Source: Salinisphaeraceae bacterium
GTDB taxonomy: Bacteria; Pseudomonadota; Gammaproteobacteria; Nevskiales; Salinisphaeraceae
Length of the DNA stretch: 46,901 nt
NCBI GenBank assembly: GCA_002683405.1
Contig: NYTH01000019.1
Span: forward strand, 1 to 46,901
Reading direction: 5' to 3'
The number at the start of each line of letters is the position of its first letter. Positions within the stretch are counted from its first letter, which is position 1. The translations under genes and the position numbers were made by a program. Positions 42,154 through 46,901 of the stretch are shown piece by piece. The notes beneath the pieces are model-generated. The model was not told the DNA's origin. It ran no database searches and saw only the letters and a program-made list of their open reading frames with translations.

Positions 42154-43254
42154 ATGATTCCCCGTCCATTTATCTATGTGACCAAGCCGCTGGCGGTGGC
42201 CACCAGCGCCGTGCTGCTGCTGTCCATGGTCGGCTGCGGCCAGCAATCCGGCGGCAACGGCCAGGCGGGCGCCCCCGCATCGGGCGATCAGGCCGCGGCC
42301 GGCTTCGACCGTGACCAGATCCGCATTGTCGGCTCGTCCACCGTCTACCCCTTTTCGTCCTATGCGGCCGAGGAATTCGGCGCCACCACCGATTATTCCA
42401 CCCCCGTGGTCGAGTCCACCGGCTCGGGCGGCGGCATGAAGCTGTTCTGCACCGGCATCGCCGAAGACACGCCGGACATCACCAACGCCTCGCGCCAGAT
42501 GAAGAAAAGCGAGTTCGACAATTGCCAGGCCAACGGCGTGAACAAGATCACCGAAATCACGATCGGCTTTGACGGCATCGTCATCGGCCAGAACAAGGAC
42601 AACCCGGCCATCAACTTCAGCCGCGAGCAGGTCACCCTGGCCGTGGCGGCCGAAGTGCCGGTGGACGGCCAGCTGGTCGACAACCCCTACAAGAAGTGGA
42701 GCGACATCGACAGCAGCCTGCCCGACCGCGAAATCCTCATCTACGGCCCGCCCACGTCCTCCGGCACGCGCGACGCCTTCGAAGAGCTGGTCATGCAGGC
42801 CGTCACCAAGAAGATGGAGGGCTACAGCGGCGAGGAATACAGCAAGATCCGTCAGGACGGCCTGTACTTGCCCTCCGGCGAGAATGACAACCTCATCGTC
42901 CAGAAGCTGGCCAACAACCCGGATGCCTTCGGCATCTTCGGCTACTCCTTCCTGGAAGAGAACAAGGACAAGATCGCCGCATCCACAATCGACGGCGTGA
43001 AGCCCGAACGCGACCTGATCTCCTCGGGCGAATACCCCGTGTCGCGCTCGCTGTTCTTCTACGTCAAGAACGACCACATCGACAAGGTGGACGGCCTGGC
43101 CGAGTTCGTGGACCTGTTCCTGTCCGACAAGCTCATCGGCAGCCAGGGCTACATGCGCAAGCTTGGCCTCATCCCGCTGCCCCAGCAGCGCCTGGCCGAA
43201 GTGCGCGACGCCTGGGAAAACCGCAAGAACCTGACCAAGGACGCCCTGCACTAG
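42154..43254 (+). CDS. pstS: Phosphate ABC transporter substrate-binding lipoprotein PstS
   Basis: This 366-residue protein binds phosphate in the periplasm for the Pst ABC importer. The signal peptide ends in a lipobox with Cys28 (LSMVGC), so it is lipid-anchored, followed by a Gly/Gln/Ala linker. The binding domain begins IRIVGSSTVYPFSSYAAEEF and contains ESTGSGGGMKLFCTGI and YGPPTSSGTRDAFEEL, which supply the Ser/Thr/Arg residues that hold phosphate. GGGAGA precedes the ATG. No pstC, pstA or pstB follows: the gene is closed off by a terminator at 43289-43318, so the permease genes must lie elsewhere. Confidence 0.92.
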   Translation: MIPRPFIYVTKPLAVATSAVLLLSMVGCGQQSGGNGQAGAPASGDQAAAGFDRDQIRIVGSSTVYPFSSYAAEEFGATTDYSTPVVESTGSGGGMKLFCTGIAEDTPDITNASRQMKKSEFDNCQANGVNKITEITIGFDGIVIGQNKDNPAINFSREQVTLAVAAEVPVDGQLVDNPYKKWSDIDSSLPDREILIYGPPTSSGTRDAFEELVMQAVTKKMEGYSGEEYSKIRQDGLYLPSGENDNLIVQKLANNPDAFGIFGYSFLEENKDKIAASTIDGVKPERDLISSGEYPVSRSLFFYVKNDHIDKVDGLAEFVDLFLSDKLIGSQGYMRKLGLIPLPQQRLAEVRDAWENRKNLTKDALH

Positions 43255-43643
43255 CGTCTTTCTAACGGTCAGTCGAACGAACTTCAAGCCGGCCCCCATT
43301 GCGGGGGTCGGTTTTTTTGTGCCCGGCCGATTGCGCCTCACGACCAGACAGTTCCCGAGCCGGGTTTTCGCTTAGTCCATTTTGGCTACCAGCGTTTGCG
43401 CACTGAAAAACGCATGCAACCAAACCGCCCGCTGCCGCGTAACCGTTCGTAAGAAAATGAAAATCCCGCAGCCTTACCGGCGTAAGGGTTCGCCCGGGGC
43501 TGCGGACTCGAACCGCCAAAACGCGCTTGACAATTTCAAATAGTTTAAGAGAGCGTGGCGGAAAGCCCGCTACAAAGGGCGAAAAGAAGATTGTTTGAAG
43601 GGAGGTGCGCGGCCTTCTCCGCGCTCAATGGAGGACTATACTT
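43255..43643. other. Intergenic region with terminator and a two-stem leader structure
   Basis: These 389 bases between pstS and the repeat protein hold the pstS terminator at the left. At 43466-43505 is a structure with alternative pairings: CCTTAC/GTAAGG (43472-43477 with 43482-43487) inside CCGCAGCC/GGCTGCGG (43466-43473 with 43498-43505), sharing two C residues. TTGACA stands at 43527-43532, but no good -10 box lies 16-18 bases on. I see no protein-like frame. GGAGGA at 43630-43635 is the ribosome site of the next gene. Confidence 0.5.
43289..43318 (+). terminator. Intrinsic terminator after pstS
   Basis: A 9-bp stem, CCGGCCCCC (43289-43297) with GGGGGTCGG (43303-43311) and one G-T pair, closes a 5-base loop and runs into seven T residues (43312-43318). 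It starts about 35 bases after the pstS stop. Confidence 0.9.
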
Positions 43644-45890
43644 ATGAGACTTGAGAAGAAATCCCGGCTGCGCAGCGGCCTGGGCGGATTGGCGGCAGGA
43701 AGTCTGCTGCTGTTCGCGCAGGGCGGCATGGCCGCTACACTTACGGTTAACTCTGAGGCAGATGAACAAATAGAAGACGCTGCCTGCACGCTTCGCGAGG
43801 CAGTGGCGTCGGTCAATACCGCTACGGATGTGGGCGGCTGTGTCGCTGATGTAAGCAATCCTTACGGCACAGATGACACCATACTTTTCTCGAACATCGC
43901 CGAAATCGCGGGGGCCGACGACTTCGACTTTTCCGTGCCTGTGACCATTGACGGCGATGGCCAGGTGACGATCGATGGCATTAACAATAACGAAGACCTG
44001 TTTGGCTTCCAGGCGCCCGCGACTGTGCGTGGTCTCACCTTCATAAACGGCAACCAATCTGCGGATCAAGGTGGCGGCGCAATTATTGCGTTGGACAGCT
44101 TGGTGGTCGAAAACTGTATGTTCTTAGACAACCAAACTACAGCCGGAGGCTCTTCCGGAGGTGCAATTCTGGCATTCGGAAATTTGACTATTTCCAATTC
44201 CTCGTTTGACAACAACAGTGCGCCAAGAGCGGGCGGCGCTGTAGAAGTAAACGAGCCTGATTCGGGCACTTCTATAGTCTCTATTAACGATAGTGATTTC
44301 TCTAACAATGATGCCACCGGAGCAATGGGATCGCCCGGCAATGGCGGCGCAATCCATATCACTGATCCAGCCGGCGCCGGTAGCGTTGCGGTCACCATCA
44401 CGGGCGGCAGCTTTACTAATAACTCGGCCGCCTCAGAAGGCGGCGCATTGTGGAACGATACCGGCGGGATGGATCTCTTGGAAGTTATCGTCGGCGGTGC
44501 CGAGGGGTCAGGTAATACAGCCTTAGGCGGCGCCGTGGATATGAACGACGGCAACGGCCAAGGCGGCGGCGGCGTTTTCAACAACGGCGGCACCGTCGAA
44601 GTTGAAGACAGCGTCATCTCCTACAACAGCGCAGCCGGCGATGTCAGTTCCGGCGGCGGCCTGTTCAATAATGAAGGCGGCTCGATGTTCATCTCGAACA
44701 CCAATGTCGACTTCAACACCGCGAATCGCGCGGGTGGCGGCATCGAATCGCGCGCCAATACCACGACACGCCTTGACGAAGGTTCGACGCTGTCGAGCAA
44801 TACAGCCAACACGACCAATACGATGGCAGCAGCCGGTGGTAACGGCGGCGGGCTTCACGTGACCGGCAACGGCAACGTGGACCTTGAAGATGTCACGGTG
44901 GACTCGAACACGGCGGCCAAGGAAGGCGGCGGCCTGTGGCCCAACACCGGCACCATGAACGTGTTTTTCTCCGTCGTGAGCAACAACCAGTCGCTGGGCG
45001 ATATTGGTGGCGAGCCCCAGGGCGCTGATGGCCAGGGCGGCGGCGGCATCTTCCTGAACGCAGGTGATGGCGAAGGCGGCATGCTCAACATCAACGGCTC
45101 GCAGATCACCGGCAATTCAGCCGTAACCGGCAGCGGTTCAGGTGGCGGCATCTTCGTCAACCAGAACGGCGTCATGAACGTCGCGGCGTCCATTATTGGC
45201 GGCAACACGGCCGCGCGCGCCGGTGGCGGCATCGAGAGCCGTGCCGGATCGACGGTCGAGCTTGTTGGCGTTGTGCTATCCGACAACAACGCTAATGGAG
45301 CAAATGATTCTCCGGGCAACGGCGGTGGCATGCACGTTAGCGGCACGGGCGCCAACACCAATGTTCGCGCCTCGCTGGTCGCCGACAACGTCGCAGCTTC
45401 CGAAGGCGGCGGCCTGTGGAACGCCGGCGGTAGCGAGATGACCGTGGACGGCACCTCGTTGCTGCGCAACACCGCGGCCGGCGCGACTGCTACCGAAGGC
45501 GGCGGGGCGCTGTTCCAGCAGGCGGGCACGGGCGGCGGCATGAACGTCTCCTTCAGCCGTATTCTGCTCAACTCCGCAACCGGTGCAGCCGGTTCGGGCG
45601 GCGGCATATTTGTCGACGTTGGCGGCGAACTGGATGTCGACAACTCGGTGATCGCTGGCAACAGCGCCAATCGGGCTGGCGGCGGTGTTGAAAACAGGGC
45701 CGGTACCGTGGATCTGTTCCGGGTGAATCTGGGCGGCACGGACAGTTCGTTCGGCAACATGGTGGGCACCAACCCCGGCAACGGTGGCGGCCTGCACACG
45801 TCCGACGTAGAAGGCGAGTCTCCAGGACAGGTTGAGATCAACGAAAGCCTCGTGGGTTACAACACTGGTGTTGAAGGCGGTGGCCTGTGA
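43644..45890 (+). CDS. Glycine-rich repeat surface protein with CSLREA-like N-terminus (5' part, ends at premature TGA)
   Basis: This 748-residue part has a signal peptide (GLGGLAAGSLLLFAQGGMA, cleavage after AMA or nearby). A CSLREA-like motif follows (DAACTLREAVASVNTATDVG), then a long right-handed beta-helix made of polymorphic-membrane-protein-type repeats (GGAI, NNSAPRAGGA, NTAxRAGGGIESRA, EGGGLW). Higher-order units of about 150-165 residues begin near 44155, 44650, 45137 and 45594. ATG 43644 has GGAGGA about nine bases upstream. The frame ends at TGA 45888-45890, exactly where three other repeats have the Trp of GG(A/G)LW; the same frame continues to 46577. The first 900 bases are less GC-rich than the rest. 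The probable role is a cell-surface or secreted adhesin-like protein. Confidence 0.85.
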   Translation: MRLEKKSRLRSGLGGLAAGSLLLFAQGGMAATLTVNSEADEQIEDAACTLREAVASVNTATDVGGCVADVSNPYGTDDTILFSNIAEIAGADDFDFSVPVTIDGDGQVTIDGINNNEDLFGFQAPATVRGLTFINGNQSADQGGGAIIALDSLVVENCMFLDNQTTAGGSSGGAILAFGNLTISNSSFDNNSAPRAGGAVEVNEPDSGTSIVSINDSDFSNNDATGAMGSPGNGGAIHITDPAGAGSVAVTITGGSFTNNSAASEGGALWNDTGGMDLLEVIVGGAEGSGNTALGGAVDMNDGNGQGGGGVFNNGGTVEVEDSVISYNSAAGDVSSGGGLFNNEGGSMFISNTNVDFNTANRAGGGIESRANTTTRLDEGSTLSSNTANTTNTMAAAGGNGGGLHVTGNGNVDLEDVTVDSNTAAKEGGGLWPNTGTMNVFFSVVSNNQSLGDIGGEPQGADGQGGGGIFLNAGDGEGGMLNINGSQITGNSAVTGSGSGGGIFVNQNGVMNVAASIIGGNTAARAGGGIESRAGSTVELVGVVLSDNNANGANDSPGNGGGMHVSGTGANTNVRASLVADNVAASEGGGLWNAGGSEMTVDGTSLLRNTAAGATATEGGGALFQQAGTGGGMNVSFSRILLNSATGAAGSGGGIFVDVGGELDVDNSVIAGNSANRAGGGVENRAGTVDLFRVNLGGTDSSFGNMVGTNPGNGGGLHTSDVEGESPGQVEINESLVGYNTGVEGGGL

Positions 45891-45908
45891 AACTCAGCGG
45901 CCGGCACC

Positions 45909-46577
45909 ATGGTCGTGGCCAACACCACGGTGTCCAACAATCAGGCCACCGGTGACGGTGGTGGCGTTTACCAGGATGGCGGTGACGGTGACGGCTCCGG
46001 CACCACCGAAGTGGCGTTCAGCACGATTACGCAGAACACCGCCGGCGGTATCGGCGGCGGGCTGGGTACCGGCAACAACGCGCCGGTGCTCACGGTCGAC
46101 GCAAGCATCATTGCCGAGAACAGCGATTCCAGCGGTAGTGAGTCGGTGATCATGGTCGCCACGTACATGCCGCAGGAATGGAATCCCGGTGTGGTGGAGA
46201 TTGTTGGCGCTCACCCGCAGAAACCCGCCCCTGCCCTGAACTGGCAGACACCGGCGATTGCGGGCGGCGCGCTGCTCGGGCTGCTCAGCCTGGTCAGCGT
46301 GGGCCGGATCCGGCGTCGCACCCGCGTGTTCCTGCTGGCCACCTCTGCAGCCCTCGTGCTGACCGCCTGCGGTGGCGGCGGTGGCGGCGGTAGTGGCGGC
46401 GGCGTCATCCCTGATGGTTCCGAGGATCCGATGAACCCGCTGGTCCGGGGCGATATCCAGTTCGTGGTGGATACGCTGCTGGGTAGCGGAATGGAACCGG
46501 ATCTGATTGGTGACGGCCTGCCGGTGAACGGCCCGGGCATTACCATTCAGGGTCTGCCGGAAACGCAGGACTTTTAA
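45909..46577 (+). CDS. 3' part of the interrupted repeat surface protein, with C-terminal anchor-like region
   Basis: This 222-residue segment is in the same frame as the preceding gene, with only the TGA and six codons between that stop and ATG 45909, which has no clear ribosome site. It completes the last beta-helix repeats (NNQATGDGGGVYQDGG, TQNTAGGIGGGLGTG). It then has a hydrophobic helix (IAGGALLGLLSLVSVG), basic RIRRRTR, and a second hydrophobic stretch ending LVLTAC followed by eight Gly residues. About 70 polar residues complete it (PLVRGDIQFVVDTLLGSGM). The helix plus Arg cluster resembles C-terminal sorting tails, and LTAC resembles a lipobox. It is probably the C-terminus of one gene split by a nonsense change; a separate small lipoprotein starting at a GTG near RIRRR is an alternative. 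Confidence 0.6.
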   Translation: MVVANTTVSNNQATGDGGGVYQDGGDGDGSGTTEVAFSTITQNTAGGIGGGLGTGNNAPVLTVDASIIAENSDSSGSESVIMVATYMPQEWNPGVVEIVGAHPQKPAPALNWQTPAIAGGALLGLLSLVSVGRIRRRTRVFLLATSAALVLTACGGGGGGGSGGGVIPDGSEDPMNPLVRGDIQFVVDTLLGSGMEPDLIGDGLPVNGPGITIQGLPETQDF

Positions 46578-46901
46578 AGCCCTCGCTCCGCCCTGTCGGG
46601 CGGACACAAAGAAGACGGGCCGCCTTGTGCGGCCCGTTTTTTTTTGGTTCTTCGCACTTTAGCGGGAAAGTATCCCGTAACCAGTTCGATGAGATTGAAT
46701 CGGGGTATAAGCATTGCGCCGCTGCTACGCAGCTGATGCGCCTTCCTTTTTCGATAAACGTCGAAAAAGGAAGCAAAAAGACGTTCCCCGCGAACTCGCC
46801 CGGTAGCAAAACTGCGTTTCGCTACCGGGTGCCCTGCGCGCCTGCACCAGCCGAGGGTCCGAGTGAGGGACTCCTGTCCCACACTCGGAGCATGGACATC
46901 C
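46578..46901. repeat. Terminator plus cluster of three perfect hairpins
   Basis: Right of the repeat protein these 324 bases carry no convincing gene; minus-strand frames of 89 and 102 codons overlap the terminator and look spurious. After the terminator come three hairpins: CTTCCTTTTTCGA (46742-46754) with TCGAAAAAGGAAG (46761-46773); CCCGGTAGC/GCTACCGGG at about 46799-46829; and TCCGAGTG/CACTCGGA with an inner GGGA/TCCC pair at about 46858-46889. Their density suggests an extragenic repetitive element, possibly continuing beyond the window. Confidence 0.6.
46615..46645 (+). terminator. Intrinsic terminator after the repeat protein
   Basis: The stem ACGGGCCGC (46615-46623) with GCGGCCCGT (46629-46637) has a 5-base loop and is followed by a run of T to 46645. 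It ends the transcript of the interrupted surface-protein gene. Confidence 0.92.

Follow-up and report, generated by a model that had tools for sequence, protein, structure and literature searches.

A single TGA at a conserved tryptophan position splits the gene of a large repeat surface protein in the window, i.e. the whole stretch of DNA analysed here, which is an entire contig (G000:C19, 46,901 bases) from a draft assembly totalling 3.72 Mb. We consider this TGA to be probably a nonsense mutation of very recent date in a surface-protein gene that these bacteria can dispense with, which would thus be a nascent pseudogene or a truncated allele. Recent inactivation, one of the options raised in the original prediction, is supported by the tryptophan that all ten relatives carry at the TGA position and by the undecayed frame downstream.

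An in-frame TGA at a conserved tryptophan position

The sequence around the TGA reads GGCCTG-TGA-AAC. The fourth repeat of the protein carries the motif EGG(A/G)LW with TGA replacing its final Trp, which is present in repeats 1–3. We took ATG 43644 as the start of the gene, GTG 43605 being an alternative, and after the TGA the frame runs on for 228 sense codons until a second stop ending at 46577. The original prediction was thus accurate in coordinates and content: it had described an in-frame TGA at a Trp codon splitting a large surface protein, three earlier GG(A/G)LW repeats with Trp (found as EGG(A/G)LW, codons 44451, 44937 and 45417) and a frame open for 229 codons past the TGA, corresponding to the 228 sense codons and the stop. 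The location at a Trp codon is not improbable in itself: a stop could arise in this gene by any of 37 single transitions, and the four repeat Trp codons account for 8 of these.

Table 1. Features of the split gene and its surroundings (positions in the window)
Feature	Position	Strand	Remarks
Strong terminator-like site before gene	43286-43314	+
Upstream part of split gene, CSLREA-like repeat surface protein	43644..45890	+	748 codons, then TGA
Probable Sec signal peptide, retained in truncated product	43644..43736	+	by eye from translation; relatives begin alike
CSLREA-like N-terminal motif	43743..43817	+	TIGR04214, 23 bits, cut-off 25
Weak terminator-like site inside gene	43909-43926	+
Trp codon, repeat motif EGGALW	44451..44453	+
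Trp codon, repeat motif EGGGLW	44937..44939	+
Trp codon, repeat motif EGGGLW	45417..45419	+
In-frame TGA, fourth repeat's conserved Trp position	45888..45890	+
Downstream part, frame shared with upstream part	45891..46577	+	228 codons and stop; codon usage intact
First in-frame ATG after TGA, 18 bases on	45909..45911	+	without Shine-Dalgarno-like sequence (by eye)
C-terminal tail: hydrophobic segment, RRR cluster, second hydrophobic segment, LTAC lipobox-like motif	46215..46397	+
Tail motif IGDGLPVNGP	46506..46535	+	GD.LP..G positions invariant in 9 relatives
Strong intrinsic-terminator-like hairpin, 16 pairs, after second stop	46608..46644	+	strongest of three + strand sites

Relatives in the bacterial family

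Of 16 other genomes of the bacterial family, 10 contain a relative of the split protein and the other six gave no match. In local alignments of 150 residues around the TGA, the aligned residue was Trp in all ten; the residue counts at this position rest on local alignments, global alignment having misplaced the repeats near the TGA. Nine of the ten relatives are intact (963-1042 aa), with both parts in one frame. The tenth (L040, in genome G014, given as 87% complete) has a frame of 675 aa and a frameshift further along, near codon 675 (L040:4638-4665), which is either a second break among the relatives of the split protein or an error in this incomplete assembly. Independent witnesses are fewer than ten because some relatives form close pairs, with 99% identity in one pair and 91-92% in two others among the nine that have the tail. 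We counted four Trp-bearing repeats in the window gene (43644-46577), the TGA position included, and three in the relatives. Loss of the protein seems tolerated, since six family genomes lack a match and L040 is frameshifted.

The genome itself contains one match to the split protein at E ≤ 1e-5, i.e. a single copy was found. A contig scan with the tail alone as query found no relative, and many weak matches to the tail were obtained in genomes outside the bacterial family. At the loci of the ten relatives (8.0-11.0 kb), no neighbour matches a window ORF at E ≤ 1e-8; the L035 relative, for instance, adjoins a class II tRNA synthetase, a zinc-ribbon protein and a UDP-sugar dehydrogenase. With such different neighbourhoods, the window gene is a family member and not a positional counterpart. 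Its PstS-like neighbour (42154-43254) may have been horizontally transferred: the best 80 of its 94 relatives are scattered over several phyla and, among the matches listed, from which near genomes are possibly left out, are Halomonas, Guyparkeria, Sulfurospirillum and Alphaproteobacteria.

State of the part downstream of the TGA

As reference for codon usage we took the 116 ORFs that passed acceptance in a sample of 212,143 bases. The in-frame score was +0.40 for the downstream part and +0.24 for the upstream part. The other forward frames of the downstream part scored -0.58 and -0.45 and the opposite strand at most +0.19, and the continued frame therefore exceeds what chance would give. On synonymous codons, the downstream part scored 0.50 and the upstream part 0.19, against a median of 0.45 for the 116 ORFs. 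It is the first part of the gene that lowers the upstream value: windows of 228 codons scored -0.18 to 0.04 there and 0.32 to 0.45 further on. Synonymous codon usage at 43644-44500 is atypical, as if this region and the subsequent repeats had different origins.

Residues invariant in the relatives are largely kept after the TGA (30/32, namely 7/7 beside it and 23/25 in the C-terminal tail), compared with 28/35 in the 90 residues before it; the counts beside and before the TGA rely on the ten relatives and that of the tail on the nine with an in-frame tail. The 25 invariant tail positions lie in 46215-46535. A scan of 43240-46901 for terminator-like sites returned nine over the two strands, where shuffled sequence would give 3.7; the stretch from the TGA to the second stop has none on the + strand. 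The undecayed frame, and a terminator-like site after the second stop with none between the two stops, together indicate that both parts formed one gene until very recently, or still do. Thus, as in a pseudogene made by nonsense mutation, the stop is premature relative to intact homologues, but the relaxed selection or decay that such a pseudogene would show after the stop was not found, as expected if the change is very recent.

N-terminal, repeat and C-terminal features of the protein

We label the protein 'CSLREA-like' because its score with TIGR04214 is a near miss (E 5.3e-05, positions 2-27 of the 27 in the model). All matches to models of chlamydial PMP / POMP-type repeats were similarly below cut-off (PF02415, 14.8 and 15.7 bits against 20.6; TIGR01376, 13.8 against 15). 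A structure predicted for the read-through protein had a mean pLDDT of 37.3 and was discarded.

The layout of the tail (two hydrophobic segments, RRR and LTAC) is common to the nine relatives that have it in one frame. Its best NCBIfam match is NF058595, the lipo-invert putative C-terminal anchoring domain, with which it shares the order of hydrophobic segment, arginine cluster, second hydrophobic segment and LTAC-like motif. The tail covers positions 21-81 of the 113 in this model, and scores of 26.9, 27.6 and 28.7 bits remained under the cut-off of 37. The anchor presumed in the original prediction corresponds to this two-segment hydrophobic tail with its arginine cluster and lipobox-like LTAC, which stays below the NF058595 cut-off. 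There were 32 further matches to NF058595 in the same genome at E ≤ 1, none above cut-off, and the tails of the ten relatives were absent from its matches at E ≤ 0.001 in the family genomes. The lipo-invert label is weak in view of these three observations; many of the weak matches are plain lipoprotein signals, and a literature search on the term 'lipo-invert' did not find it in the best 20 of 22 papers. With scores below the cut-off of this model, the tail could represent a variant sorting tail or a separate one.

The tail resembles the GlyGly-CTERM / rhombosortase system, as outlined in PMC3237569 and PMC6219818, in its glycines, hydrophobic segment and then arginines, and differs in running on beyond the arginines. 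With the rhombosortase model, none of the 17 family genomes gave a match over cut-off; weaker matches were found in all 17, and likewise in controls. The genome also encodes GspD, a secretin of type II secretion (545 bits, cut-off 351); a link between that system and the split protein would be conjectural.

Genetic code and decoding of UGA

TGA is the commonest stop in the sample, where it ends 63 of the 116 ORFs, and RF2 is present (497 bits, cut-off 370). All 43 tRNA matches in the genome were read with ARAGORN, and among them were one tRNA-Trp (anticodon CCA), no UCA anticodon and no tRNA named Sec. The tRNA-Trp looked normal by eye, with a 5-bp anticodon stem, A9 and G24. Changes A9C, G24A and in the anticodon stem of tRNA-Trp are linked to UGA decoding in the available part of PMC13092985, and by eye none of the features described there occurs in this tRNA-Trp. 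A suppressor tRNA was rejected. The best SelB match in the genome, 195 bits, lies below the cut-off of 242.25. No Rfam family reached gathering score within the window, and the predicted RNA fold of 101 bases around the TGA was ordinary (z -0.82; 41 of 200 shuffles fold as well).

A genome recoded to read UGA as Trp would be expected to carry tRNA-Trp(UCA) or an altered tRNA-Trp(CCA), to leave TGA unused as a stop and to have lost RF2, and none of this was observed. For a selenoprotein, SelB falls short, and the homologues carry Trp at the position, not Sec or Cys. Recoding is thus very unlikely, with TGA as the commonest stop, RF2, an ordinary tRNA set and SelB below cut-off; the same observations bear out the doubt about genome-wide recoding already voiced in the original prediction.

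Other in-frame stops in the genome

We surveyed the window and nine further stretches (215,744 bases, <6% of the genome) for junctions, defined as two in-frame open stretches of at least 60 codons each meeting at a stop. Eight of 515 junctions passed a codon-score filter, among them the TGA of the split gene. An in-frame start lies 3-33 bases past the stop in the seven others and 18 bases past it in the split gene. In five of the seven, the two sides belong to different Pfam families; one of these five pairs EamA with an epimerase, the EamA match being below cut-off. The remaining two have a nearly complete family before the stop and a downstream side without family, and are not fully excluded as further splits. 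Only the TGA of the split gene was shown to split one protein among the eight.

Five additional loci were picked from rows of weak matches that reported internal stops, one of them, L026, from the tail matches outside the bacterial family, and none is a split. In L026, L173, L177 and L205 the stops precede the starts of ordinary lipoprotein-type genes, and L156 holds an open release-factor-like frame with a TGA just before its start.

Probable consequences of the TGA

Should the TGA be genuine, most ribosomes would stop at it, at codon 749. The product would be an exported repeat protein that keeps its signal peptide and is deprived of the last repeat coils and the C-terminal hydrophobic tail; without this tail it would presumably be released rather than held at the membrane. 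A working protein is probably not produced from the second half, because the downstream ATG has neither a visible ribosome site nor a signal peptide. Natural leakage at UGA may yield traces of full-length protein, mostly with Trp at the TGA; nothing in the data indicates selection for leaky decoding.

Origin of the TGA

The main rival to a recent mutation is a single-base error from base calling, assembly or culture, with a gene that is truly intact. We regard it as unlikely, although the sequence evidence is just as compatible with a base-call error. In its favour, the stop is single and isolated, no other lesion was seen in the gene, and the TGA lies ~1 kb from a contig end in a draft assembly of 58 contigs. 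On the other side, genome completeness is 99.11% and contamination 0.2%, and no second stop was shown to split a protein in the 215.7 kb surveyed. The contig end itself (46634-46901) is a dispersed intergenic repeat that begins ~745 bases past the TGA; it matches 16 other places in the genome at 75-100% identity, several of them near contig ends (C28, C29, C37, C38, C40). This repeat probably causes assembly breaks, and since the contig ends in it, proximity to the end need not imply poor data or coverage.

A functional leaky readthrough, in which a normal tRNA reads UGA as Trp and yields mostly a released form and a minority of full-length protein with tail, would also leave the downstream frame undecayed. 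It agrees with the available part of PMC11126739, in which leaky UGA codons of E. coli receive mostly Trp, with some Cys: here too the stop is UGA and the family residue is Trp, whereas leakage at the TGA of the split gene is presumed. The reported widespread occurrence in bacteria of in-frame stops flanked by purifying selection (PMC7918605, available part) also speaks for it. We nevertheless judge such readthrough improbable: the stop occurs in 0/10 relatives, where programmed readthrough would conserve it, the tRNA-Trp lacks the changes mentioned above, the RNA around the TGA gives no fold signal, and a recent mutation accounts for the absence of decay without any function, most such stops being held short-lived in PMC7918605. 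More elaborate, and a long shot, is a translational dial in which the leaky UGA would give mostly a tail-less released product and a membrane-attached minority by readthrough with Trp, the very residue of the family, dependent on growth conditions, with display varying from cell to cell. It is hardly credible that the two parts are separate genes of one operon, the second starting from the ATG at 45909: this ATG is conveniently close to the TGA, but nine of ten relatives have both parts in one frame, and the second gene would start inside a repeat, devoid of the signals already noted as missing. The chance that UGA stands for Trp or selenocysteine in this genome is practically nil, the position of the TGA at a Trp being all that speaks for it against the stop usage, RF2, tRNA, SelB and Rfam results.

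The four options offered for the TGA in the original prediction were supported in part. Recent inactivation and the doubt on recoding stood, and a sequencing error is the main rival described above. Programmed readthrough found no specific signal, with an ordinary RNA fold, no Rfam family and relatives without the stop, and strain-level on/off switching found no support, a slippage tract at the TGA not being seen by eye. What the tests used (homologue residue, decay after the stop, tRNAs, release factor and junction survey) suggest is either an error or a recent lesion of ordinary kind, and the split gene illustrates cleanly that one in-frame stop can mimic recoding. If strains shared the TGA with the downstream part kept under selection, the gene would offer a natural setting in which to test functional UGA leakage at the anchor of a surface protein.

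Comparison with described in-frame stops

The recent nonsense mutation favoured here agrees with the cases of Belinky et al. 2021 (PMC7918605) as far as the available part of that study describes them. Similarly to those cases, the split gene has one nonsense codon, both sides of which can be aligned, without other signs of decay. A difference is that a stop had to be present in at least two genomes to enter that study, while the TGA of the split gene was seen in one. The split gene is one more instance of the already described in-frame stops in otherwise intact bacterial genes.
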